Source: Natronococcus sp. CG52
Lineage (GTDB): Archaea > Halobacteriota > Halobacteria > Halobacteriales > Natrialbaceae
Direction of reading: 5' to 3'
NCBI RefSeq assembly: GCF_023913515.1
Contig: NZ_CP099392.1
Span: 310,001 to 374,000, forward strand
DNA length: 64,000 bases
Under the pieces are notes generated by a model. That model had not been told where the DNA came from and made no database searches. It saw only the letters and a program-made list of their open reading frames with translations. The translations under genes and the position numbers were made by a program. Each line of letters starts with the position of its first letter. Position 1 is the stretch's first letter. Positions 31,960-45,687 of the stretch are shown here, piece by piece.

Positions 31960-32013
31960 ATTCAACTAAAAGGTTAAATAAGAGCGCGGCGTCTATTCAA
32001 CCGGATGGTTGAA
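31960..32013. promoter_or_regulatory. Two ArsR-type inverted repeats at the start of the ArsR operon
   Basis: The first is ATTCAAC (31960-31966) with GGTTAAAT (31972-31979). The second is perfect: TTCAACC (31996-32002) and GGTTGAA (32007-32013) around GGAT. The second repeat includes the ATG at 32005, so a bound protein would cover the start codon. Both share the TTCAAC/GTTGAA core. Confidence 0.5.
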
Positions 32014-32343
32014 CGAGAGGCGAACGATCCGGACCTCGACGCGATCTTCGGAGCGCTGGCCAACCCGACCCGACGGGCGCTCATCGAGCAGTTGGCCGGC
32101 AATTCAGAGAGCGTCGGCGATCTGGCAGAGCCCCACGACATGTCCCTGGCGGCGGTGTCGAAGCACCTGCAAGTGCTGGAAGACGCGGGCCTCATCGAGG
32201 TCGAGAAGGACGGCCGTGTACGCCGTTGCCGCTTGGACGCCGCACCGCTGAGCGACGCCTTCGGCTGGCTGACTCGGTACCGGATCTTCTGGGAGGATCG
32301 GCTCGACGCGCTCGAAGACCATCTAGAGGAAGATGACCAATGA
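32005..32343 (+). CDS. ArsR-family winged-helix regulator
   Basis: 112 residues. The wHTH covers about 10-80: IFGALANPTRRALIEQL, then MSLAAVSKHLQVLEDAGLIE and the wing VEKDGRVRRCRLD. The WLTRYRIFWEDRLDALEDHL tail is typical of ArsR proteins paired with SRPBCC (AHSA1) genes. No metal-binding cysteines are seen, so it is not a metal sensor of the classic type. The stop overlaps the next start by 4 bases. It likely represses its own operon through the repeats around its start. Confidence 0.9.
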   Translation: MVEREANDPDLDAIFGALANPTRRALIEQLAGNSESVGDLAEPHDMSLAAVSKHLQVLEDAGLIEVEKDGRVRRCRLDAAPLSDAFGWLTRYRIFWEDRLDALEDHLEEDDQ

Positions 32344-32849
32344 CAGATCACGAGGCGGCCGACGAGACCGAATTCGAACCGAGCGAGTATAACCTGATCA
32401 TCGAACGAACGTTCGACGCGCCGCGCGAGCGCGTCTGGGAAGCGTGGACGAATCCCGAGCAGGTCGAGCAGTGGTGGGGACCGGAGGGTTTCACGGTACC
32501 CCGCTGTGAGATGGACGTGCGGCCGGGCGGATCCTTTCACATCGACATGGAAGCCCCCGACGGGACCATCTACCCCGACGAAGGGGAATTTCACGAGGTC
32601 GACGAACCCGAACGACTCGTCGCCACGAGCCGCGCATTCGAGGACGAGGATGGCGACTTCCAGCTCGAGGTGCGCCAGACCGTGACGTTCGCCGACCGCG
32701 ACGGCAGAACGGAACTCACGCTGGAAGCGGAGGTCATCACGGGGACCCCCGAGGTGGCCGATGCACTCGAGGGAATGGAACTGGGCTGGAGTCAGAGCCT
32801 CGACAAGCTCGACGCGTACGTCGCTCAGTCAGCAGGTGATGCGGAGTGA
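32340..32849 (+). CDS. SRPBCC (AHSA1-like) protein, first copy
   Basis: 169 residues. After a 20-residue acidic lead comes NLIIERTFDAPRERVWEAWT, the AHSA1-type opening, then QVEQWWGPEGFTVPRCEMDV and RPGGSFHIDM and a C-terminal helix GWSQSLDKLDAYV. This ligand-binding fold is often encoded with ArsR regulators; the ligand is unknown. It overlaps both neighbours by 4 bases. The second copy follows directly and is similar in its RTFDAPRERV segment. Confidence 0.88.
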   Translation: MTDHEAADETEFEPSEYNLIIERTFDAPRERVWEAWTNPEQVEQWWGPEGFTVPRCEMDVRPGGSFHIDMEAPDGTIYPDEGEFHEVDEPERLVATSRAFEDEDGDFQLEVRQTVTFADRDGRTELTLEAEVITGTPEVADALEGMELGWSQSLDKLDAYVAQSAGDAE

Positions 32850-33328
32850 CGGACGACGCCGGAACTGGTGATCGGCGGCAGCTCGAAACGGACGAGGCGA
32901 GCCTAACCATCCGCCGGACCTTCGACGCGCCGCGCGAGCGCGTCTTCCGAGCTTTCACCGACCCCGAAGAACTCGAGCAGTGGTTCGCACCGGGAGAGGT
33001 GACGACACAGGTCCATATCCTCGAACCCGAGCCCGACGGTGCCCTCTCACTCAGCTTCGTGGACGAGGAGCACCCGACCGATATCGAGGGAACGTTCCTG
33101 AAGGTGCTCGAGCACGAGCGGATCGTCCATACCTGGCAGTACCCGGGTGAAGAAGAGAGCCGCGTGACCTACGAGTTCCGGGACGTCGACGACGGAACGG
33201 AAGTCGTGCTCACCCACGAAGACATCGGTCCGTACCAGGATCGTTCGGCGCGCGAGAACGCCGACGGCTACGCCGAGGGGTGGACCAGCGCGCTCGAGAA
33301 GCTAGAAGGGGTTGCGAGCCGCGAATGA
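32846..33328 (+). CDS. SRPBCC (AHSA1-like) protein, second copy
   Basis: 160 residues with a GTG start overlapping the preceding stop. The opening LTIRRTFDAPRERVFRAFTD and LEQWFAPGEVTTQVHILEP match the AHSA1 family, and it closes with the helix NADGYAEGWTSALEKLEGV. Similarity to the first copy suggests tandem duplication, probably to form a hetero-pair or handle two ligands. Function unknown. Confidence 0.88.
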   Translation: MTDDAGTGDRRQLETDEASLTIRRTFDAPRERVFRAFTDPEELEQWFAPGEVTTQVHILEPEPDGALSLSFVDEEHPTDIEGTFLKVLEHERIVHTWQYPGEEESRVTYEFRDVDDGTEVVLTHEDIGPYQDRSARENADGYAEGWTSALEKLEGVASRE

Positions 33329-33950: not shown

Positions 33951-34577
33951 CTACATCGGATCACGCATGGACTCCGTAATGATCGTCCCCTCGGCCCGGT
34001 GAAGGATTCCGCTCGCCGTCGCCTTGTTCACGTCGAATTCGTCCGCGATATCCGTGAGCGAGCACCGACGCGGGGAATCGTAGTACCCTCTCTCGATCGC
34101 CGCCGCGACGAACTGGCGCTGCCGATCCGTGAGTAACTCGTGCGGATCGTGCGACTGCGTAATAGATACCAGCTCGTACGCGACGTCCGCCGCCTCGAGT
34201 TCGGTCGTGTATCGAGTCAGCTGATCGTGCGTGACCGTCGCCTCGGTGACCACCCACCCGTCTCGGATGCGCATCGGAAACGGCGGCGGATTTCCGGATT
34301 CGCGTCCCGCGCGACCGGGTGCAGGCTCCGACCGCTGGCGGAACTGGACCACGAGCCGCTGTTCGCCGGCGTGTATCTCCTCGTAGGATCGCACGTCCGG
34401 ATCGGTCTCGAAGTATCGACGAGCGACGTCGTGATCCAGCCCGGTTATCTCGACGAGCGTCACGTGGCCGTCTGTAGTCTCACAGGAGGTCAGCAGCGCG
34501 AATTCGGCATCCGGATACTCGGTCGAGAGCGTCGCGAGACCGCCGAACGCTTCTACCTTCATTCGAACGGTGGGCAT
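33951..34577 (-). CDS. HTH_10 (bacterio-opsin-activator type) regulator, intact copy A
   Basis: 208 residues. The N-terminal 120 residues form a sensor-like alpha/beta domain (MPTVRMKVEAFGGLATLSTE, YPDAEFALLTS). The C-terminal HTH_10 is clear: LLTDRQRQFVAAAIERGYYD, SPRRCSLTDIADEFDVNKAT and ASGILHRAEGTIITE. It is one of four related genes within 7 kb (others at 36319, 37183 and 40116; two are decayed). Targets are unknown; it converges on the GFA operon and is divergent from a small membrane protein/monooxygenase pair. Confidence 0.88.
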   Translation of the reverse strand: MPTVRMKVEAFGGLATLSTEYPDAEFALLTSCETTDGHVTLVEITGLDHDVARRYFETDPDVRSYEEIHAGEQRLVVQFRQRSEPAPGRAGRESGNPPPFPMRIRDGWVVTEATVTHDQLTRYTTELEAADVAYELVSITQSHDPHELLTDRQRQFVAAAIERGYYDSPRRCSLTDIADEFDVNKATASGILHRAEGTIITESMRDPM

Positions 34578-34772
34578 ACGCTCTGTACGACGAGCCAGCG
34601 GTTCAACATAGACGCAAACATGTTGCCATCGACCGTTCGAACGATCTCACTGCCAGTCGATCGTGAACTCGAGAAGGCGATCAAGCCGGTAGCAAGGCGC
34701 GTCGTTCGAGGAGGACAACATGTTTGCGAAAATCGAGAAGTCGGGCGGCGGTCTCCTAGCTGACGAGAGACG

Positions 34773-35030
34773 ATGACTACCGAACACACGGACGAAACGA
34801 ACTCGACTCGCGTCAGCGTAGGCGACACGGTGAACTGGACCCGGCTCGAGGGGGTCGTCGCAGTTGGGGCACTCCTCACCTCGTTTATCTGGTTCCTCGG
34901 AATGCCGACCGGAATGGCGATCGGTATCGGGTTTGGCACGGTACTGTTGCTCGACTTCCTTCGCAGCATGCTCTTCGACGAGGCACGTACCGACCGCGCC
35001 GATCTCACCGCCCGAGAGGGACACCAGTGA
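34773..35030 (+). CDS. Small two-helix membrane protein
   Basis: 85 residues with an acidic-neutral N-terminus. Two helices follow (GVVAVGALLTSFIWFLGMP at about 28-46 and GMAIGIGFGTVLLLDFLRSML at about 47-67), then a charged tail. Its stop overlaps the GTG of the downstream monooxygenase by 4 bases, so both are in one operon. No family motif is recognised. Confidence 0.7.
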   Translation: MTTEHTDETNSTRVSVGDTVNWTRLEGVVAVGALLTSFIWFLGMPTGMAIGIGFGTVLLLDFLRSMLFDEARTDRADLTAREGHQ

Positions 35031-36247
35031 CCTCGAGCGAACGAACGTCCCGCAGCGTACTCGTAATCGGCTGTGGGATCGCCGGACCGGTTCTCGCCGC
35101 GTTCTTGCAGCGCGCGGGAATGGACCCGATAGTGTACGAAGCCGCAGCCGAGCCGAGAGACGACGAAGGTGCATTTCTGCAACTGGCGCCGATGGGTGTC
35201 AACGTGCTCAAGACGCTCGGGATTACGGACGACGAGATCGAAGCCGCCGGCGGATTCCCCGACTCGGGCATCGTCTTCTACAACAGCGAGGGCGAGACCA
35301 TCGCTGAATTAGATGGGACGAACGAAACGGAAGCCTACGGTGCGCGGAGTTACGTTATCAAACGCGGCCGTTTGGCCAAACTGCTTCGCGAAGCGGCGAT
35401 CGAGCGCGGAATCACCGTTCGCTTCGATGCGAAACTCGAGGATATCGAGATCGTCGACGACGACACCGTCGAAGCTGCGTTCGAGGACGGACCCGTGACT
35501 CGAGGTGACCTCCTCGTCGGATGTGATGGCGTGCGCTCGAAAACGCGGCGACTCGTCATGCCCGACGCACCTGCACCCGAGTACACCAAAATGGTCGACT
35601 GCGGCGGCTTCACCACCCGGCCGTCGTCCGTTCCGTCTTCCAGCGCGATGCACATGACCTACGGGAAGCAAGCCTTCTTCGGCTACCTCGCTAAACCGGA
35701 CGACGAGGTCTACTGGTTCGACAACCTCCCGTGGCCCGGGGAACCGGCGCGAGGGGAGCACGGTTCGATGTCGAACGACGAGTGGAAACGGCACCTGCTG
35801 GACGCACACGAGGACGATTCGTCGTTCATCTCCGAGATTATTCGATCGACCGACGGAACGATCGGCAAGTGGCCGCTGTACGATTTGCCCACGTTAGACA
35901 CCTGGCACGAGGGACCGGTCTGTCTGATCGGTGATGCCGCACACGCCACGCCGCCGCACAACGGTCACGGTGCGTCGATGGCGCTCGAGGACGCGATCGT
36001 ATTGGCCAAGTGCCTTCGAGATATCCCCGACCTCGAGCGCGCATTCGAGCAGTTCGAGGAGCTAAGAACGGAGCGTGTCGAAAAGGTATCTACGCAGGCG
36101 AGACGTATCGGGAAGCAAAAGACGATGACCAGTCCCGTCAAACGCTGGGTCCGGGACCGGATGCTGCCGGTCTTTCTGAGGTTCGGAACGGACTCGATGG
36201 ACTGGCTGTTCGGGTATCGCGTCGAGTGGGATCGACAACTCACCTGA
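35027..36247 (+). CDS. FAD-dependent monooxygenase (PHBH-type)
   Basis: 406 residues with a GTG start. The Rossmann FAD motif is VLVIGCGIAGPVLAAFLQRAG at about 10-29 (GxGxxG). The DG-type motif is LLVGCDGVRSKTRRL near 164 and the third FAD motif is VCLIGDAAHATPPHNGHGAS near 300. This is the class A flavoprotein monooxygenase pattern; members hydroxylate aromatic or polyketide-like compounds with NAD(P)H and O2. It is co-transcribed with a small membrane protein. An HTH_10 regulator lies divergently upstream; the substrate is unknown. Confidence 0.9.
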   Translation: MTSSERTSRSVLVIGCGIAGPVLAAFLQRAGMDPIVYEAAAEPRDDEGAFLQLAPMGVNVLKTLGITDDEIEAAGGFPDSGIVFYNSEGETIAELDGTNETEAYGARSYVIKRGRLAKLLREAAIERGITVRFDAKLEDIEIVDDDTVEAAFEDGPVTRGDLLVGCDGVRSKTRRLVMPDAPAPEYTKMVDCGGFTTRPSSVPSSSAMHMTYGKQAFFGYLAKPDDEVYWFDNLPWPGEPARGEHGSMSNDEWKRHLLDAHEDDSSFISEIIRSTDGTIGKWPLYDLPTLDTWHEGPVCLIGDAAHATPPHNGHGASMALEDAIVLAKCLRDIPDLERAFEQFEELRTERVEKVSTQARRIGKQKTMTSPVKRWVRDRMLPVFLRFGTDSMDWLFGYRVEWDRQLT

Positions 36248-36318
36248 GTGGCAGTCCCGAACTGAGCGCGATCCCGGCTACCGATCTCTGACGGAGCCTC
36301 CACGCTCGAAACCAGCGT

Positions 36319-36969
36319 CTACGCGCCGGGATCTTCGAGAAATTCCGTGATGATCGTTCATTCTGCACGGCGGAGAATTCCGATCGCCGTCGCCTCGTTG
36401 ACCTCGAAGACCTCGGCGAGGTCGGTGACCGAACAGCGGCGTGGACTGTCGTAGTACCCTCGAGCGGCCGCTTCGGTGACGAATCGTCACCGTCGGTCGG
36501 TCAGTACGACCGACGGCTCGAGCGATTGTGAAACCGAGACGAGTTCGTCGGTGGTGACGCCGGCGGCGTCGAATCCTGCTCTGAGCGTGGCCAGCCGTCC
36601 GGGTGTCGTCAGCGTCTCGCTGTGTATCCAGCCGTCTCGGAGGACGGGCGGCGTTCGCGGAAGAGTTCCGGATTCGCGCGCCGCCCGGTACGGTTCCGGC
36701 TCCGGGGCGACCGTACATGACCAAGAACGTCTGATCGTCTGCGTACAGCACTTCGTGGGATCGTACCCGCTCTAGTTCGTCGACGCGTCGAATGACCGAC
36801 TCAGATTCCGTCGTCTCTTCCCCCACCAGGACGAGAAGCTCCTCCTCGACCGGGTGTAGCCGGCCAGGATTCGGAACTCGGTCTCGGGATTGTCGGTCGA
36901 TAGCGCGGCGAGTCCGTGGTGATCGGGTTTGATTTCAGGTGTACCCGCCGCACAGTACCTGTAGGCCAT
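36319..36969 (-). pseudogene. HTH_10 regulator, decayed copy B
   Basis: Length (about 650 bases) and pieces match the intact neighbours, but the reading is broken. The N-terminus reads PEIKPDHHGLAALSTDNPET from an ATG at 36969. Another frame gives GEETTESESVIRRVDELERV and EVLYADDQTFLVMYG. The C-terminal HTH reads LTDRR, stop, then RFVTEAAARGYYDSPRRCSV, TDLAEVFEVNEATAIGILRR, AE, stop, TIITEFLEDPGA. One stop replaces the Gly codon of the RAEGTIITE seen in copy A (GGA to TGA). Substitution stops plus frameshifts show real decay. Confidence 0.85.
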
Positions 36970-37182
36970 CGAGCGACGATACTCGTTCTTTACAGTCACG
37001 ATCACAGAACACTGTGGAAGACACTCGCCGAACAGAGCCGATGTCAGATTGGCCCTAAGCCAGCCACACTGGCGGCGAGAGCGACGGCAGCAGTATCAGA
37101 TGAGCGGGCCGACCTCGAGTCACCAACCCGCTGGAAGATCGTGCTGCCGCTTACGAACTGACAGTCACGATATGATCAGGAC

Positions 37183-37836
37183 TTAGTTGAGCGCGTCGAG
37201 ACCGTCGATCTGTCCCGCCTCAGCGACGAACGCTTTGATAACCTGCTCTTCGGCACGGTGGAGAACGCCGCTCACTGCCGACGGATTAACGTCCAGCCCG
37301 GTCGCAAGCTCAGTGAGTGAACAACCGCGCGGGCTATCGTAGTATCCACGCGCAATGGCTTCAGTGAGGACCTCCCATTGACGGTCAGTCAATAGGTCGG
37401 TCACCTCGACCGGCTGGGTGATCGAGATGAGTTCGAACGATACGTCAGCCCGTTCGAATTCAGCTTTGAGCTGCGACAATCGTTCCCACGACACTATCGT
37501 TTCAATCGTTTGCCAGCCGTTACGCAAAATCATCGGGTATTGCGGTAACATTCCTGCGGTACGTGCCGCGTATCGCGGCGCGTGCTCCGAGGTTTCGATC
37601 TGAAACAACACTCCCCGCTGATCAGTGCGTAGTACCTCACACGAGCGCACCTCAGGTGCTTCTTCGAGCGCCTGAACGAGAGCCTCCGAATTGGACGTCT
37701 CTGCGTCGACAACCACCTGTAAGCTGCCCGTTGTGCGGTGAGCGGTAAGGATTCGAAACTCGTCGTCCGGATAATTGATCGAAAATCTCACCAACGAATC
37801 ACGCGGCAGTTTAACTTTCAGCCAGACTCTGGGCAT
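37183..37836 (-). CDS. HTH_10 (bacterio-opsin-activator type) regulator, intact copy C
   Basis: 217 residues. MPRVWLKVKLPRDSLVRFSI opens the N-terminal domain. The HTH_10 is LLTDRQWEVLTEAIARGYYD, SPRGCSLTELATGLDVNPSA and VSGVLHRAEEQVIKAFVAEA. It is about as long as copy A and shares the segment around FELISITQPVEVTDLLTDRQ. It is divergent from the SnoaL-like gene at 38028, a plausible target. G+C is slightly lower than its neighbours, as for the genes to its right. Confidence 0.87.
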   Translation of the reverse strand: MPRVWLKVKLPRDSLVRFSINYPDDEFRILTAHRTTGSLQVVVDAETSNSEALVQALEEAPEVRSCEVLRTDQRGVLFQIETSEHAPRYAARTAGMLPQYPMILRNGWQTIETIVSWERLSQLKAEFERADVSFELISITQPVEVTDLLTDRQWEVLTEAIARGYYDSPRGCSLTELATGLDVNPSAVSGVLHRAEEQVIKAFVAEAGQIDGLDALN

Positions 37837-38027
37837 ATTCCGTCTTCGTTCCCTGACGGCTTGGTACCGTCGTGGTGAATATTTTCACGCGAATCGCTAT
37901 GGTGTCAGATCGCCTAGTAAACTTCACAGGCATACTACACAACGTATGCCGGAACGAGACTGGTCTCGGAAGACCGGTTCAAAGCGGCGGTACGCAGCGT
38001 ACCCGTCTCGACCGAAAGAACGATCCC

Positions 38028-38480
38028 ATGTTAACAAATTCCGATACACAGGTCATCAACCGCTACTGCGACGAGGTCTTGAACGACGGTGATTTCACCG
38101 CCGCCACCGAGATACTCGCGCCCGACTTCGTCATCCACGGACTGCAGACGCTCCGAGGCAGGGAGCGCTTTCTCGAAGTTCAATCGACGATACGGAAGGC
38201 ATTCCCAGACCTGACGGTTGACGTAGAAGATATGTTCGGAGACGAGAATACCGTTGCAGTCCGATCCACGATGCGTGGAACACATCGAGGTGAGTATCTG
38301 GGTATCGCAGCGACGGGCAGACAGGTAGCGGTCGAATCGATGATGATATGCCGACTGTCCGGCGGGCGAATAGTCGAAGTATGGGCACAGATGGACTCGC
38401 TGTCCTGGTTCCAGCAGCTCGAGGCTGTCCCACCGATGGAATGGCAGGAAGCGGAATCGACCCCGACTGACCAAGACTAA
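38028..38480 (+). CDS. SnoaL-like polyketide cyclase / ester cyclase family protein
   Basis: 150 residues from the ATG at 38028 (MLTNSDTQVINRYCDEVLND). SnoaL-type NTF2 fold: DFTAATEILAPDFVIHG, FLEVQSTIRKAFPDLTVDVE, TMRGTHRGEYLGIAATGRQV and GRIVEVWAQMDSLSWFQQL. These match family positions including the TGR segment and the W at the end. The enzyme activity is unproved for most members. It lies 15 bases before the DUF5519 gene, so they form an operon, with an HTH_10 gene divergent. Confidence 0.85.
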   Translation: MLTNSDTQVINRYCDEVLNDGDFTAATEILAPDFVIHGLQTLRGRERFLEVQSTIRKAFPDLTVDVEDMFGDENTVAVRSTMRGTHRGEYLGIAATGRQVAVESMMICRLSGGRIVEVWAQMDSLSWFQQLEAVPPMEWQEAESTPTDQD

Positions 38481-38494
38481 GACGTGTACGAGCA

Positions 38495-38959
38495 ATGACG
38501 GAGAAAGACGTTCGACAACGGAAAACGGGCAGCGAACAGATCATCGAAACGGTCGCGTCGTGGCCGAACATCACGGCAGCTGAAGGGCGGTTCAATTCGA
38601 CGAGCTTCGAACTAGCGGGCAGGGAGATCGGACACCTACACCCGAGACTGGCGGATATCGACTATCCGAAACCGCTGCGGGATGAGCTGATTACTGAAGG
38701 CCAAACCGAGGAACATCACGCCGTTCCAATGCACCCAACTGCGACGACCTTCCGCATCGAATCAACCGACGACGTCGACCGCGCCGTCCGGCTGTTCCGA
38801 CTCTCGTACCTCGTTCGCGTGGCCACCCTGCAGGAGGACGTGGGGGCGGAGTCGGATGTAACCGATATCGATGTCGAGAAAGAACTAGATGGACTCGAGC
38901 CGAGCGATGCGATTCGTCGCGCCTTCGAGGCTGCAGTAGACGAGGAGCGCAGTAAGTAA
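38495..38959 (+). CDS. DUF5519 (luciferase-domain-like) protein
   Basis: 154 residues. The family pattern is seen as QIIETVASWPNITAAEGRF, STSFELAGREIGHLHPRLAD, EGQTEEHHAVPMHPTATTFR and DVDRAVRLFRLSYLVRV. These are the REIGHLH and HH-P positions common in DUF5519 proteins. No reaction is established. It is co-directional with, and 14 bases after, the SnoaL-like gene. Low-complexity features are absent. Confidence 0.75.
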   Translation: MTEKDVRQRKTGSEQIIETVASWPNITAAEGRFNSTSFELAGREIGHLHPRLADIDYPKPLRDELITEGQTEEHHAVPMHPTATTFRIESTDDVDRAVRLFRLSYLVRVATLQEDVGAESDVTDIDVEKELDGLEPSDAIRRAFEAAVDEERSK

Positions 38960-39057
38960 CGGGTTGATCCTCGCGGTCCAGAATACGCGGAACCGACCGG
39001 ACGACACCCACAGCCTGATATTCCGGTTCGCGGAACCGGCAGCGAGTACCGTCGCAA

Positions 39058-39480
39058 TTAGCCGTCCGAAAGCTCGCTCAGGAGGATCGGAGACACTCTG
39101 GCACCGAGCCAACCGGCCACGATCGCAAGCGAGAACTGTACAAGCATTGTCGGGTCGAGCGGTCCGAATGCCAGGCCGATAACCGCGACTACCGCGCCGA
39201 CTTAGGAGACCGTGTACGATTGCGGCGCTCGAGTCGACGCGACGGACGACCCACGCCGCAGCCAGGACAGTAAGCAGTATCGTCAGCGCTGGAACGATTA
39301 CCGTGCTCACGAGTACGGTGAACGACTCGATGACGAGTCGATCGACTCCCCGGGCGCCTGAAACGAGAGGACGAACGTCTAGACGACGATCGCGACGACG
39401 AGGAGTGGGATCGAGATGGCGTGCGGTGCGATCCTACCGACAACGATGTGTTTCAACTTCGGGTTTCGACTGTGTATCAT
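39058..39480 (-). pseudogene. Small membrane protein, decayed
   Basis: The minus strand from the ATG at 39480 reads MIHSRNPKLKHIVVGRIAPH and AISIPLLVVAIVV, then a TAG stop, then TFVLSFQAPGESID. Another frame continues VIESFTVLVSTVIVPALTIL, LTVLAAAWVVRRVDSSAAIV and HGLL. A third gives VGAVVAVIGLAFGPLDPTML, VQFSLAIVAGWLGARVSPIL and ends at 39058. Joined, this is a normal four-helix protein of about 140 residues, broken by one stop and two shifts. The family is not named. Confidence 0.7.
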
Positions 39481-39565
39481 TTCGGACATACTCGAAGTGG
39501 TATCGTCCGTTGCCGTTCGTCGGCGTCCCGCGAGCGGTGCGCGCGTTCTGGAATCGTCGAAGCGG

Positions 39566-40015
39566 TCATTCCGCGACGGGATCCTCAGGGACGATACCGA
39601 GCCGGCGTAGCAAGCTGATGGTGTCCGCGTACAGGTACAGCTCGGCGATTTTCCCGCCTTCGATACGAAAAACGCCGACGTTCTCGAGTGTGATCTCGTT
39701 TCCTGTCGGTTCGGCGTCCAGTAGCTCTCCGTGATGCGTTCCGATCAACGTGTGCTGGTAGACGACGATGTCTCCTTCGGCGATGCACCCGTTCTCGGTG
39801 ACGCTGAGGTCGGGAAACGCGGCGAAGAAGTCCGCATTACCGGCCTTAAATTCCTCGCGACTTCGAAACGATTCTCCGTTTCCCGTCGCGTATTCGTGGT
39901 AGTCAGCTCTCAGGAAGTCGTCGGCGACTTCGACGTCCTTCTCGACGAAGACCGCATCTATGAAGTCGCGCACTACCGCCTTGTTTTCCGCTTCCGTTTG
40001 CTCTTGATCTTCCAC
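39566..40015 (-). CDS. SnoaL-like polyketide cyclase / ester cyclase family protein
   Basis: 149 residues with an NTF2-like fold: NKAVVRDFIDAVFVEKDVEV, FLRADYHEYATGNGESFRSR, KAGNADFFAAFPDLSVTENG, TLIGTHHGELLDAEPTGNEI and GGKIAELYLYADTISLLRRL. It is the second SnoaL-like gene in the cluster and is read toward the decayed membrane protein. It is divergent from the decayed HTH_10 copy D (about 100 bases apart), so it may have lost its regulator. Confidence 0.85.
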   Translation of the reverse strand: MEDQEQTEAENKAVVRDFIDAVFVEKDVEVADDFLRADYHEYATGNGESFRSREEFKAGNADFFAAFPDLSVTENGCIAEGDIVVYQHTLIGTHHGELLDAEPTGNEITLENVGVFRIEGGKIAELYLYADTISLLRRLGIVPEDPVAE

Positions 40016-40115
40016 CGTATGATCTCCACTTCTCTATCGGCTACACAAGCGTATCAGGGTTGAGTCAGACACGTTCGCCCGTGTGCTGATGACGGTTCGG
40101 CGTCGAGAGACGTCT

Positions 40116-40813
40116 ATGCCGAGAGTGCGAACGAAAGTCGAGCCGCACGGGAGTTTGGCCGAGTTCTCGGCGAACCACCCCGATGCCGAACCCCGATTGC
40201 GGGCCGGATGGGACGACGGAGAGCGGTTCCTGTCGATTGCGGAAGCGGACGCGCCGAACGACGAGGTGGTTCGTTCGTACTTCGACGACGCGCCTGAAGT
40301 GGACTCGTACGAGGTCGCACGCGCGGACGACGAGATCACCGTCATTCAGGCGGCGATCGAAAATCCGGACTCTCACCGGGCCGCCCGCGCAGCAGAGACG
40401 CTCCCGCGATTCCCGCTGGTCGTCCGCGACGGCTAGATCTACAACGATTTGACAGTGACACACGAACAGCTGTCGCAATTCACGTCCGAACTCGAGGCGG
40501 CCGGCGTCAGTTACGAAATCGCGTCGATCACGCAGTCGATCGACGTTTCGACGCTCCTTACGGAGCGACAACACGAGTTCGTCGTGGAGGCGATCGAGTG
40601 GGGCTACTACGACTTACCGCGTCGCTGTTCGGTCACCGACCTCGCCGAGGCGTTCGGCGTCAACAAGCGACCGCCAGCGGCATCTCACGTCGCGCCGAAG
40701 GACAACTTATTAAGGGGTTCGTTCCGGGCCGTCCCAACGGACGATCGTGGCCCACTCGAGCGGACGAAGAAACGGCGACTGAGGTCCCTACTAGTCTATG
40801 CCGGAGCCGGTAG
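40116..40813 (+). pseudogene. HTH_10 regulator, decayed copy D
   Basis: MPRVRTKVEPHGSLAEFSAN opens the usual N-terminal domain. The frame runs to FPLVVRDG, a TAG (40434), then IYNDLTVTHEQLSQFTSEL and the HTH start LLTERQHEFVVEAIEWGYYD, LPRRCSVTDLAEAFGVNK. Intact copy A has Trp where the TAG lies. After VNK, one missing G moves the rest to another frame: ATASGISRRAEGQLIKGF. One nonsense change plus one shift, so a pseudogene. Readthrough of the old frame makes an artificial fusion to the next gene. Confidence 0.87.
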
Positions 40814-40838
40814 ACAGATCACGCACGAGGGGGTCGTC

Positions 40839-41642
40839 ATGGAAGAACGAGACCACAACCACGCCGATGAGCCGAGAACCGAGGAGAGCCACGAGGCGGA
40901 GGGAGGTGAACATGCCCACGGAACCCACGATCGTCACGCGCTACCCGGCGGACTCTCGGTCGCTACCGGTGGCCTCCGTCTCGCCCCGTCGGAGATTCGC
41001 CTCGAACCCAACGTCGAGCAGCCGTTCACGTACCAAATTCGCGAGTACGACGGGACCGTCGTCACGGAGTTCGAGGAGACCCACGACGAGCTGAGCCATC
41101 TCATTTTCGTCCGGCGCGACCTCACTCGCTTCCAGCACCGGCATCCCGAACTGGGCGCGGACGGCACCTGGAGCCAGCAACTCGCGCTTCCGGACCCGGG
41201 AGTGTACCGAGCGTTCGTGGACGTCCGCGTCGACGGACGACCGACGACGCTCGGCGTTGATCTCTTCGCACCCGGCCCGGTCGAACTCGATCCTCGCCCC
41301 GATTCCACGCGCGAAGCGACGGCGGATGGGTACGATATAACGCTCGTGCCCGAGGACATCCGGGCCGGGGAAGACGTCGCCCTCGAGTTCGAGTTTCGAC
41401 GAGGGGGCGAGCGGGTTGCTCAGTTACATCCGTACCTCGGTGCACTCGGACACCTCGTCGCCCTCCGAGAGGGGGATCTCGCGTATTTACACGTCCACCC
41501 CGAAGAGACGGATCCCGAAGGCGGGACGGTCCGGTTCGAAGCTCGATTCCCCACCGCAGGTCGATATCGCCTCTTTCTGCAGGCGAAGCCCGAAGGGGAC
41601 CTGCTCACGACGTCCTTCGACGTGCGAATCGACGATCGGTAA
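40839..41642 (+). CDS. His-rich protein with two Ig-like beta domains, unknown
   Basis: 267 residues from the ATG at 40839; upstream in-frame sequence belongs to the decayed HTH_10 gene. The first 45 residues are rich in His, Glu and Asp (DHNHADEPR, GEHAHGTHDRH), possibly metal-binding. Two beta domains follow, with ELSHLIFVRRDLTRFQHRHP at about 95-115 and LHPYLGALGHLVALREGDLA plus YLHVHPEE at about 215-245. The repeated H-x-H-P pattern suggests copper or other metal binding, as in related actinobacterial secreted proteins. No signal peptide is visible here. Confidence 0.7.
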   Translation: MEERDHNHADEPRTEESHEAEGGEHAHGTHDRHALPGGLSVATGGLRLAPSEIRLEPNVEQPFTYQIREYDGTVVTEFEETHDELSHLIFVRRDLTRFQHRHPELGADGTWSQQLALPDPGVYRAFVDVRVDGRPTTLGVDLFAPGPVELDPRPDSTREATADGYDITLVPEDIRAGEDVALEFEFRRGGERVAQLHPYLGALGHLVALREGDLAYLHVHPEETDPEGGTVRFEARFPTAGRYRLFLQAKPEGDLLTTSFDVRIDDR

Positions 41643-42240: not shown

Positions 42241-42430
42241 CTTCGGCGGGCGGAAGCGAAGACCATCCGGTCCGCGGTCGTTTAACAGCGAGGTTCGTCT
42301 CGTTCGAACGCTCCAGCAGTGTGCTCGCGTGTGGCGGGTATTCGGTGGTAACCGACCGACTCGAGAGACGGCGTCGGAGAGCGAACACCGCGTGCGATTT
42401 TAGGGTCTCGTGGGACCGCCGCGGTATCCG

Positions 42431-43267
42431 CTACTGCTGGGCCCGGAACAGATACATCGTCACGGGGCCGAACACGGCGACGAATACCGCCGACATGAAC
42501 AGTACCGTCCCGATTTCGCCGGCCGTCGCCGTCCCGTGCATTAGCCCGCGCATCGCGATGACGAGGTGACTGAAGGGGTTGACGCCGACGAACGCCTCGA
42601 GCAACCCGGGCATCGTCTCGGGGCCGACGAAGACGTTGCTGACGAACGTCAGCGGGAACAGGATCATCATGCTCACGCCCATGAGCGACTCCGGGCTTCG
42701 CATGACGAATCCGAGTGCGGTCCAGATCCACGACAGTCCGAACGAGAACACCAGCAGGAGCGCCACCGCCGACAACACGCCGACGGCTCCGCCCTCCGGT
42801 CGGAACCCGAGCACCAACCCGAGGGCGATGACGATCGTCGAGGCGATCGTGTACCGCACGGCGTCGCCGAGCAGGGCGCCGACGATGACCGAGGGTTGCC
42901 AGACCGGCAGGGTTCGGAACCGATCGAAGACGCCCTCGTCGATGTCGTCGTTCAGGGTCACGCCGGTGTAGATGGTGATGAACACGACCGTCATGGCGAG
43001 GATCCCCGGCAGGAGTTCCTGCAGGTACGCGCTCGTCGATCCCGCGAGCGCCCCGCCGAACAGGTAGGTGAACAGCAACAGGAACATGATCGGGAAGACG
43101 GTGACGTCGAACAGCTGCTCGGGGACGTGCTTGATCTTCAACAGCGCTCGCCAGCCGAACGTGAGCGAGGCGGAGATGGCGTTCGCTCGCGGCGGCCGCG
43201 GCTGATCCGACACCGCCGACCGCAGGATTTCGACGTCCGGCTCGGTGGCCGTGGTCTCGTCGGTCAT
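42431..43267 (-). CDS. ABC-2 type permease, drug-exporter (DrrB-like)
   Basis: 278 residues. A 35-residue cytoplasmic lead precedes [20 protein letters not shown], then six helices. DrrB-type motifs are [36 protein letters not shown] (coupling helix), [20 protein letters not shown] and [14 protein letters not shown]. It partners the ATPase encoded upstream, with an ATGA-type 4-base overlap. Probably a multidrug or natural-product exporter. Confidence 0.9.
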
Positions 43268-44358
43268 CGGTACCCCTCCTCGGCAATCGCGTCCTCGTGA
43301 GCCGGGTGATCGGTCAGCGCGAGAAACACCTCGTCGAGACTCGGCTGGCCGAGTGCGAAATCAGTGATCGCGACGTCGGCTCGAGAGAGCTCTACGAACG
43401 CGTGGGCGATGCGGTCGGTCTCGGCGACTCGAGCCGACAGCGCCGTCGGATCGGACTCGAGATCCACTGGAACGTCGAGGATCCGGATCAGCGCCCGTCT
43501 GGCCTCCTCGCGCTGGTCGGGATCGCGCACACGGACGTTCAGGACGCCCGAACCGATCGAGGATTTGAGTTCGCCCGGCGTACCCTCGGCGATGATCCGA
43601 CCGTCGTCGATGACGGCGATCCGATCGGCGAGCTGGTCGGCCTCCTCTAAGTACTGCGTGGTCAGCACCACCGTCGTTCCGTTGGCGACGAGCGCCCGGA
43701 TGATCTCCCAGACCTGGGTCCGATTCCGCGGGTCGAGCCCGGTGGTCGGCTCGTCGAGGAACAGCAACTCCGGCGTGACGACGATGCTCGCTGCGATATC
43801 GAGGCGGCGTCGCATCCCGCCGGAGTACGTTTTCACCTGACGCGAGGCCGCTTCGGTCAGGCCGAATGCCGCGAGCAGTTCGTTCGTTCGCGCTTTGGCC
43901 TGCGACCGCGAGTAGCCGAGCAATCGCGACAGCAGGACGAGGTTCTCGCGGCCGGTGAGGTCCTCGTCCACCGACGCGAACTGGCCGGTCATGCTCACCC
44001 GGCTGCGCACGTCGTCGGCGTCGCTCACCACGTCGTGGCCGAACACTCGAGCCGCACCCGCGTCGGGACGCAACAGCGTCGCGAGCATGCGGATGGTGGT
44101 GGTCTTTCCGGCGCCGTTCGGTCCGAGGAGGCCGTAGATGCCGCCCGCGGGAATCGTCAGGTCGACGCCGTCGACGGCTTTCGTGTCTCCGAAGTGTTTG
44201 ACGAGGCCGTCCGTTTCGATCGCGAGAGCCGGTTCGTCGGCGCCGTCTTCGCCGCTCGCCGTCGAGGCGTCCGCACGGCTCGCCGCTGCCGTGATCGACT
44301 CCGGTCGCTCCGCGTCTTTCGCGAAATCGGAGGTGCTCGACGATCGGTGATCCGTCAT
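43264..44358 (-). CDS. ABC transporter ATP-binding protein, DrrA-like
   Basis: 364 residues from the ATG at 44358; the open frame extends upstream but is not family-like. After an acidic-neutral lead of about 45 residues come Walker [15 protein letters not shown], the DrrA-type [20 protein letters not shown], signature [16 protein letters not shown], Walker [15 protein letters not shown] and switch [15 protein letters not shown]. The C-terminal domain ends in [12 protein letters not shown]. It is the energy subunit of the exporter. Confidence 0.93.
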
Positions 44359-44877
44359 TCGCCCACCTCTCCGGTGGGGGGTCGCGGTCGGTCGCGACCG
44401 ACGCGACGCGCAGTCGGTCTCTCGGTTGGGGTGCGATCGATCATGATTCTCTACCGTTTCGTACGCCTCTCGAGCGTATATACGGGATCCAAGAGCGGTG
44501 CGAAAGTAGTCTTCGGAGGGCCTGAGACGGCCGACGTGGCGCGATACGGGCGCCGTCGAGTCACTTTCACTCCTCCCGATCGAAGACGTTCGCGGCTCTC
44601 GTGCGCCGCGATGGTTCACAGGCGCGTTCTCGGTTCCGGATCGGCACGCGTAGCTACGGAGTCGAGTTCGATGCCGGTTCGCGTGAAGATATTCACCCTC
44701 CCTCGTCGGCGGCGGAATGTGACCCAATAGGATCGAACGGGAACGGCTACGTTCGATCCGCGAGACGCGTCTTTTATGCCGTTTGCTAGCGTCTCGATAC
44801 TGCGAGGACGAGCGTAACGTATCAGATCAACTCGGGTCGGTATCGCGAAGAGCCGCCGGAATTGGCGACGAAATCAC
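44359..44877. other. Intergenic stretch without recognised features
   Basis: 519 bases between the ABC ATPase and the alpha/beta hydrolase, which diverge. It must hold both promoters; no clear TATA box or inverted repeat stands out. No gene is recognised. Confidence 0.4.
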
Positions 44878-45687
44878 ATGACGAAAACCGACGTACACAG
44901 CGATCGAACGGGTATCGTGCGTTCGAACGACGGCACATCCATCGCCTTCGAGCGATCCGGCGAGGGTCCACCGCTGGTCCTCGTCGGCGGCGCACTCACC
45001 GATCGGTCGGCGGGCGCGCCGCTGGCAGCGCATCTGGCGCCGCACTTTACCGTGTACACCTACGACCGACGGGGACGGGGAGAGAGCGGTGACACGGAAC
45101 CGTACGCGGTCGAACGCGAGTTCGACGACCTCGAGGCGATCATCGACGAAGTCGGCGGCTCGGCGTTCGTCTTCGGGATGTCCTCCGGTGCGATACTCGC
45201 CCTCGAGGCCGCGGTTCGCGGCCTCGCCATCGAACGACTGGCACTGTACGAACCGCCGTACCGGGTCGACGAGGGCGCACCCCGACCGCCGCCGGACTTC
45301 GCGACGCAACTCGAGGCCCGTCTCGCAGACGGTCGACGGGGAGACGCGGTCGAACGCTTCCTGACGGAAGCGGTCGGGATGCCCGCCGACGGCGTCGGCG
45401 GGATGCGGAACGGACCGATGTGGCCGGCCCTCGAAGAACTCGCACCGACACTCGTCTATGATCTCACCGTCGTCGGAGACGGCTCGCTGCCGACCGCCCG
45501 GCTGGAATCCGTCGCGGCGCCGACGCTCGTGATGGACGGAACGGAGAGTCCGGCGTGGGCGCGTCACGCGGCGCAAGCGCTCGCGAACGCCCTACCCGAT
45601 TCGCAGTACCGCTCTCTGGAGGGGCAAACTCACGAGGTCACACCGGACGCCCTCGCTCCCGTGGTAGCGGAATTCTCGGACGATTGA
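44878..45687 (+). CDS. Alpha/beta hydrolase
   Basis: 269 residues with a canonical fold. The oxyanion region GPPLVLVGGALTDRS precedes YTYDRRGRGESGD. The nucleophile elbow is FGMSSGAILAL (Ser near 103), the acid is in LVMDGTESPAW and the His is in EGQTHEV near 251. It is an esterase or lactonase-like member; the substrate is unknown. It is divergent from the drug-exporter genes. Confidence 0.88.
   Translation: MTKTDVHSDRTGIVRSNDGTSIAFERSGEGPPLVLVGGALTDRSAGAPLAAHLAPHFTVYTYDRRGRGESGDTEPYAVEREFDDLEAIIDEVGGSAFVFGMSSGAILALEAAVRGLAIERLALYEPPYRVDEGAPRPPPDFATQLEARLADGRRGDAVERFLTEAVGMPADGVGGMRNGPMWPALEELAPTLVYDLTVVGDGSLPTARLESVAAPTLVMDGTESPAWARHAAQALANALPDSQYRSLEGQTHEVTPDALAPVVAEFSDD

Follow-up and report, generated by a model that had tools for sequence, protein, structure and literature searches.

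Why do four related regulators of the HTH_10 family stand close together on a plasmid of the haloarchaeon Natronococcus sp. CG52, with enzyme genes between them and two of the four in decay? The cluster lies in a stretch of 64 000 nucleotides (the window; positions below are counted from its first letter) on C2, a 393-kb secondary replicon (plasmid) in a genome of three contigs and 4.74 Mb. A first-pass annotation had explained it by serial duplication of one regulator together with its target gene. We consider it fairly probable, from sequence comparison, that the cluster is instead a plasmid collection of separate regulator–target modules whose regulators belong to one haloarchaeal HTH_10 (Bat/NarO-type) subfamily; the modules would act as local switches for oxidative detoxification or export.

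The four copies, numbered by position, are present as that annotation described them. Copy 1 (33951–34577, reverse strand, 208 amino acids; Pfam HTH_10 E = 9.3e-18) and copy 3 (37183–37836, reverse strand, 217 amino acids; E = 6.5e-16) are intact, and copy 2 (~36325–36969, reverse strand, from tblastn reading frames) and copy 4 (40116 to ~40730, forward strand, with a stop and a frameshift) are decayed, which bears out its division into two intact genes and two with stops and shifts. The cluster is real and its parts are ordinary, and it is more informative than the annotation had suggested.

Regulators keep partners and operator-like sites

We collected 122 relatives of the regulators from haloarchaeal genomes and clustered their neighbours, with genes called by our own simple composition-based caller and partner functions taken from Pfam or, for SDR and NmrA, from sequence appearance. 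Within subclades a partner is conserved, in most cases transcribed divergently from the regulator: DUF5519 (the copy 3 clade), DoxX, SnoaL, SDR, FMN reductase or NmrA. The monooxygenase partner, unlike these mostly divergent ones, lies on the same strand as its regulator. On the subfamily tree 14 changes of partner label suffice, whereas 200 shuffles gave 33.5 on average and never fewer than 29. The earlier expectation that a target gene stays beside the same regulator clade is therefore upheld clade by clade, and on these sequence comparisons we take the regulator–target linkage across the subfamily to be real. The copy 3-type order with SnoaL, DUF5519 and the operators recurs at two other loci (L277 and L140), and a 73% orthologue of SnoaL_a, the SnoaL gene beside copy 3, adjoins the copy 3 orthologue in Halosolutus.

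Candidate operators lie between regulators and partners. Copy 1 has two, both GCAAACATGTT-type: operator A (GCAAACATGTTGCC, 34614–34627, forward strand), with its centre 43.5 bp from the start codon of copy 1, and operator B (GCAAACATGTTGTC, 34714–34727, reverse strand), with its centre 52.5 bp from where the membrane-protein/monooxygenase operon starts. They form an inverted repeat in the copy 1 intergenic region and are the only two exact GCAAACATGTTKNC sites in the 4.74 Mb. The candidate operator of copy 3 (GTGAATATTTTCAC, 37875–37888) is centred 45.5 bp from its start codon, and the intergenic palindrome there, GTGAATATATTCAC, is kept with small changes in six orthologues. Sites of both copies fit GYRAA-N4-TTYRC. 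The narrower GTGAAN4TTCAC occurs four times in the genome, including the copy 3 site at 37875 and a second copy-3-type candidate (GTGAAGATATTCAC, 44683–44696) ~188 bp upstream of an alpha/beta hydrolase gene (44878–45687, forward strand; Pfam Abhydrolase_6 E = 1.6e-15), a possible copy 3 target; these two sites have an extended TTCGC-GTGAANATATTCACC flank in common. At the operator position of copy 4 there is a weak, degenerate palindrome (TCAGACACGTTCGC, 40065–40078, forward strand, centre 44.5 bp from the start) with 8/10 pattern matches. The same kind of site as at 44683 was also seen upstream of an epoxide hydrolase in Natrialba asiatica (L147:8059).

The arrangement extends across the subfamily: 75 of 126 regulators have a 14-bp palindrome with an AA-N4-TT core ~44 bp upstream. 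Scored for palindrome plus core (threshold ≥ 12, zone −95 to −36), these 75 promoters compare with about 1 (range 0–3) in shuffles and with 30 of 954 (3%) control promoters. Exact GYRAA-N4-TTYRC is found in 31/126 promoters (0.4 in shuffles), and at least 9/10 matches to it in 55/126 (7.8 in shuffles). Sites most often begin at −50 to −53 relative to the regulator's start, and several divergent pairs have the palindrome centre 44–47 bp from both start codons. These predicted sites back the linkage of regulators to their partners.

Outside the core, the outer bases of the sites differ: the window copies share AA-N4-TT, and the outgroup clade carries CCGAACATGTTCGG. Residue 190 (copy 1 numbering), in the recognition helix, tracks the half-site, with G at GTGAA/GTAAA, V/I at TCGAA, K at GGAAA, R at AGGAA and E at CCGAA (NarO). 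This recognition code is consistent across clades, with only 3–6 independent switches, too few for significance. It is conceivable, though we hold it only tentatively, that the subfamily forms a natural set of insulated one-protein switches in which residue 190 and those around it determine the outer half-site bases, so that new copies could gain new operator specificities, and in which copies would travel on plasmids together with their operator and be combined with new enzymes, as copy 1 may have been with the monooxygenase.

Proposed organization of the modules

Module 1 would consist of copy 1, a small membrane protein (34773–35030, forward strand, 85 amino acids) and a monooxygenase dependent on flavin adenine dinucleotide (FAD), whose gene (35027–36247, forward strand; FAD_binding_3 E = 2.5e-28) overlaps the membrane-protein gene by 4 bp at its start. 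Module 2 would comprise copy 3, SnoaL_a (38031–38480, forward strand, SnoaL-like ester cyclase family; Pfam SnoaL E = 1.3e-34), a DUF5519/Luciferase-domain protein, type ii (38495–38959, forward strand; PF17648 E = 1.1e-11), and perhaps the hydrolase at 44878. Each intact copy has a palindromic site of its own ~44 bp ahead of its start codon, and the neighbouring operon shares that site or has a second one. We infer that the N-terminal domain responds to a small molecule or a redox state and that a dimer, bound to the site, would switch on the regulator itself and its neighbour. Leaderless transcripts are common in haloarchaea; if those of these genes are leaderless, the site falls just upstream of the expected transcription factor B recognition element (BRE) and TATA box, which would suit activation better than repression. 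The enzymes are likely to convert or detoxify oxidised or aromatic compounds, which the adjacent DrrAB-type pump may export. Most modules would come in by transfer from one replicon to another, and they would exchange partners and decay, with copies 2 and 4 and a membrane-protein gene at 39073 as decayed examples.

Age and origin of the copies

Pairwise identity among the four copies is 41–46% (~41% between copies 1 and 3), which makes them old paralogues, not recent duplicates. The best matches to copy 1 in the genome are the other three cluster copies (46%, 42% and 43%), followed by proteins at 39%, 36% and then ~31–33%, so the four are not generic HTH_10 genes brought together by chance; the whole genome has 63 HTH_10 matches. 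Orthologues of copy 1 reach 77% in Natronococcus (G064, L124) and 74% on plasmid unnamed1 of Haladaptatus pallidirubidus (L232); those of copy 3 reach 75% in Halosolutus, Natrialba asiatica and plasmid unnamed6 of H. pallidirubidus, and 74% on a plasmid of Haladaptatus halobius. The two orthologues in H. pallidirubidus are thus on different plasmids, and copy 1 and copy 3 orthologues were not found as neighbours in any genome searched. For copies 2 and 4, the closest relatives among 125 genomes of the family reach no more than ~52%. The subfamily is patchy: with copy 4 as query, matches at E 1e-36 occur in 19 of these 125 genomes. Genomes that have it carry several members, up to 11 matches at E 1e-25 in a single one. 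A megablast search of the 33–42 kb region against the plasmid collection found nothing, so the collection holds no close copy of the whole block.

Partners can be exchanged

Sequence relationships also indicate that partners can be swapped between regulators. In the window, the small membrane protein links the monooxygenase to the copy 1 unit; this small protein also stands beside the copy 1 orthologue of G064 (L124) in the same divergent position. Elsewhere in haloarchaea, intact members of a different, 137-amino-acid membrane-protein family are found directly beside monooxygenase genes; in the window this usual partner is left only as a pseudogene, the third decayed gene of the cluster (39073–39453, reverse strand; tblastn E = 4e-14, with stops and a frameshift).

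The other SnoaL gene, SnoaL_b (39566–40015, reverse strand; Pfam SnoaL E = 2.8e-28), is divergent from copy 4. We rejected the two as a conserved pair, as 72% SnoaL_b orthologues in Haladaptatus have no regulator next to them. For the same reason SnoaL_b does not demonstrate a target left without its regulator, as the first-pass annotation had proposed for genes in this cluster; the monooxygenase, for its part, is still under an intact copy 1.

Parts of the region are shared with another genus. The ArsR-AHSA1 genes (31965–32852) and the ATP-binding cassette (ABC) genes (42420–44572) have 82–87% DNA identity on the G077 plasmid (82% for the DrrAB-type exporter), where they stand in another order with a decaying subfamily regulator between them. 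As G077 shares only these parts, and reordered, a window-wide shared regulon is not supported.

Weighing the explanations

If one regulator and its target had been serially duplicated in place, with birth and death afterwards, some features would be accounted for: the four copies are each other's nearest relatives in the genome, and copies 2 and 3 are in tandem on one strand. Their ages and relationships speak otherwise. The copies are far less similar to each other than to orthologues elsewhere (74–77%), in a 54-member tree copies 1 and 3 fall in separate, fully supported subclades, and the approximately unbiased (AU) test rejects a clade made up solely of the four window copies (p 4e-5); recent tandem or serial duplication in place is rejected by these identities together with that test. 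The orthologues of copies 1 and 3, moreover, lie on separate replicons in H. pallidirubidus and were not found as neighbours in the searched genomes. The monooxygenase, SnoaL and DUF5519 proteins come from unrelated enzyme families and did not arise by copying of a single target, and the two SnoaL genes differ in their nearest relatives. What stands of the birth-and-death account is the decay, seen in copies 2 and 4 and in relatives elsewhere; its duplication history is mostly wrong, and we judge the scenario as a whole unlikely. The simplest reading is that the modules were gathered from separate sources, and an old duplication followed by dispersal, giving the four copies a very old common origin, is possible.

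A single regulator controlling the whole 33–45 kb set as one pathway, with the other copies redundant, would explain why a copy-3-type site also occurs at 44683, near the hydrolase and the exporter, and the enzyme types fit one theme of oxidation, cyclisation and export. Copies 1 and 3 differ in operator sequence, however, their modules are found separately elsewhere, and gene order is not kept as a block, so that we give such a pathway a low probability as well. It is more improbable still that the regulators control only themselves and that the neighbouring enzymes are passengers tolerating insertion at plasmid hot spots. Changing or missing partners of the monooxygenase and SnoaL_b agree with that view; the conservation of partners by clade, the second copy 1 site preceding the monooxygenase operon and, in divergent pairs, sites at equal distances from the two start codons argue against it. 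A collection of separate modules thus remains our preferred explanation, and several observations weigh against it. The tree and the AU tests do not fix the order in which the four copies branch at depth, and a single deep clade of the copies plus their orthologues is not rejected (p 0.31 and 0.35), as serial duplication would have it. The promoter counts give the strength of the pattern and not a number of independent events, because the promoters belong to related genes and copies 1 and 3 supplied the pattern. Linkage also has exceptions: eight other monooxygenase loci (~50% identity; on the strain's own chromosome, in G047, twice in G069, in G077, and in Haladaptatus halobius, Halomontanus rarus and Natrinema salinisoli) are accompanied, directly or within several kb, by a regulator from a different clade, only one copy 1 orthologue has the small membrane protein as well, and next to the Haladaptatus SnoaL_b orthologues not even a remnant of a regulator was detectable.

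Enzymes and exporter

The monooxygenase scores 99.8 bits for FAD_binding_3 against a cut-off of 22, which identifies it as a class A FAD monooxygenase; it reaches no NCBIfam equivalog cut-off. SnoaL_a and SnoaL_b score 119 and 99 bits against the Pfam SnoaL cut-off of 28.4, and both are far under the methyl ester cyclase cut-off. The neighbouring DrrAB-type ABC exporter (42431–44358, reverse strand) consists of an ATPase (43264–44358) that passes the drrA model (TIGR01188; 377 bits against a cut-off of 312.45) and a permease (42431–43267) that falls under the drrB cut-off. An FAD monooxygenase, SnoaL proteins, a hydrolase and a DrrAB-type exporter together suggest that oxidised or aromatic compounds are handled here. 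An oxidative or aromatic chemistry is plausible for this set of enzymes from their families, in line with the first-pass proposal of a system for aromatic or reactive compounds. SnoaL matches and an ATPase of drrA type recall the SnoaL/DnrD cyclases and DrrAB exporters of polyketide pathways, from which the locus differs in the low methyl ester cyclase scores and in that no polyketide synthase was seen near the cluster. Our literature search found no publication on SnoaL with haloarchaeal regulators.

Relation to known regulators

One close known parallel is NarO, the denitrification regulator of Haloferax volcanii, which likewise has an HTH_10 domain, no PAS/GAF domains and an AA-N4-TT palindrome upstream of its targets (PMC5746218, PMC10062603, PMC11218638). 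The functional palindrome of NarO-type promoters is CGAA-N4-TTCG (PMC5746218, PMC10062603), so the core is common to both; the outer bases in the present subfamily are, by clade, GTGAA, GCAAA, TCGAA, GGAAA or AGGAA. Unlike those of NarO, the predicted targets are not nar/nir genes; they are SnoaL, monooxygenase, SDR, DoxX and similar genes, and they lie directly beside the regulator. DmsR of Halobacterium, a short HTH_10 regulator described as an activator of dimethyl sulfoxide (DMSO) respiration, also has no PAS/GAF domains (PMC11218638). The likeness of our regulators to it is one of description, its sequence not having been compared, and target genes and inducing conditions differ. Around the window copies the neighbours are monooxygenase, SnoaL and DUF5519 genes, with no nar, nir or dms gene adjacent. 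The bacterio-opsin activator Bat of Halobacterium shares the C-terminal HTH_10 domain, and copy 3 has weak BAT-domain similarity; unlike Bat, the copies are ~210 amino acids long, have no PAS/GAF sensor domains and show no link to bop genes.

Haloarchaea have dozens of HTH_10 regulators each, very few with known targets. Clade-specific operators at a fixed place, together with a conserved neighbour, give concrete target predictions for much of the subfamily, and the evolution of archaeal regulator specificity becomes directly testable in genetically tractable hosts.

Domains, decay and predicted fold

All four copies match HTH_10 (domain E = 9e-18, 7e-13, 7e-16 and 2e-11 for copies 1–4), with copies 1 and 3 at 64.2 and 58.3 bits, above the curated cut-off of 23.1. 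In copies 1 and 3, Pfam gave no match to PAS/GAF sensor domains; the BAT associated domain (PF15915) scores 21.8 bits in copy 3, under its cut-off of 25.8, and has no match in copy 1. Copy 2 has three in-frame stops, frameshifts and a degenerate start region, and in copy 4 a TAG stands at the conserved tryptophan of DGW and the recognition helix contains a frameshift. They keep 15 and 18 of 20 near-invariant residues, respectively, of which 91 intact relatives keep 19.5 on average and at least 17. Decaying members were also seen in Haladaptatus (L270, L272) and in G077 (C3:507891–508460), which makes loss of subfamily members common.

The AlphaFold model of the regulator has a mean predicted local distance difference test score (pLDDT) of 89. 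In fold searches, the C-terminal part resembles a sigma region 4-like helix-turn-helix, and the N-terminal domain gives only middling ties (Ta1207, ACT/NIL-like; Z 7–8), which do not indicate a ligand. A sequence search of the PDB returned no real matches.

Neighbouring genes and minor observations

Between the copies lie the monooxygenase, both SnoaL genes and the DUF5519 gene, as first annotated; the His-rich gene placed among them sits beyond copy 4 (40839–41642, forward strand; weak YtkA match) and is a neighbour not clearly part of the cluster. The frame of the copy 4 remnant (40449–41642, forward strand) continues stop-free into it, so automatic annotation may call one fused protein. The chromosomal monooxygenase paralogue (G000 C1:320836–322713) has its own HTH_10 regulator of a different clade directly downstream.

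Copy 3 reads away from SnoaL_a in the window (37183–38959), and at a locus of H. pallidirubidus (L277:1351–3947) its orthologue lies between two operator copies and reads toward SnoaL. Operator-to-SnoaL spacings match (156, 155 and 151 bp), and flank alignments for an inversion are ambiguous (z 3.3 vs 4.5). As speculation, copy 3 may have inverted through its own palindromic operators.

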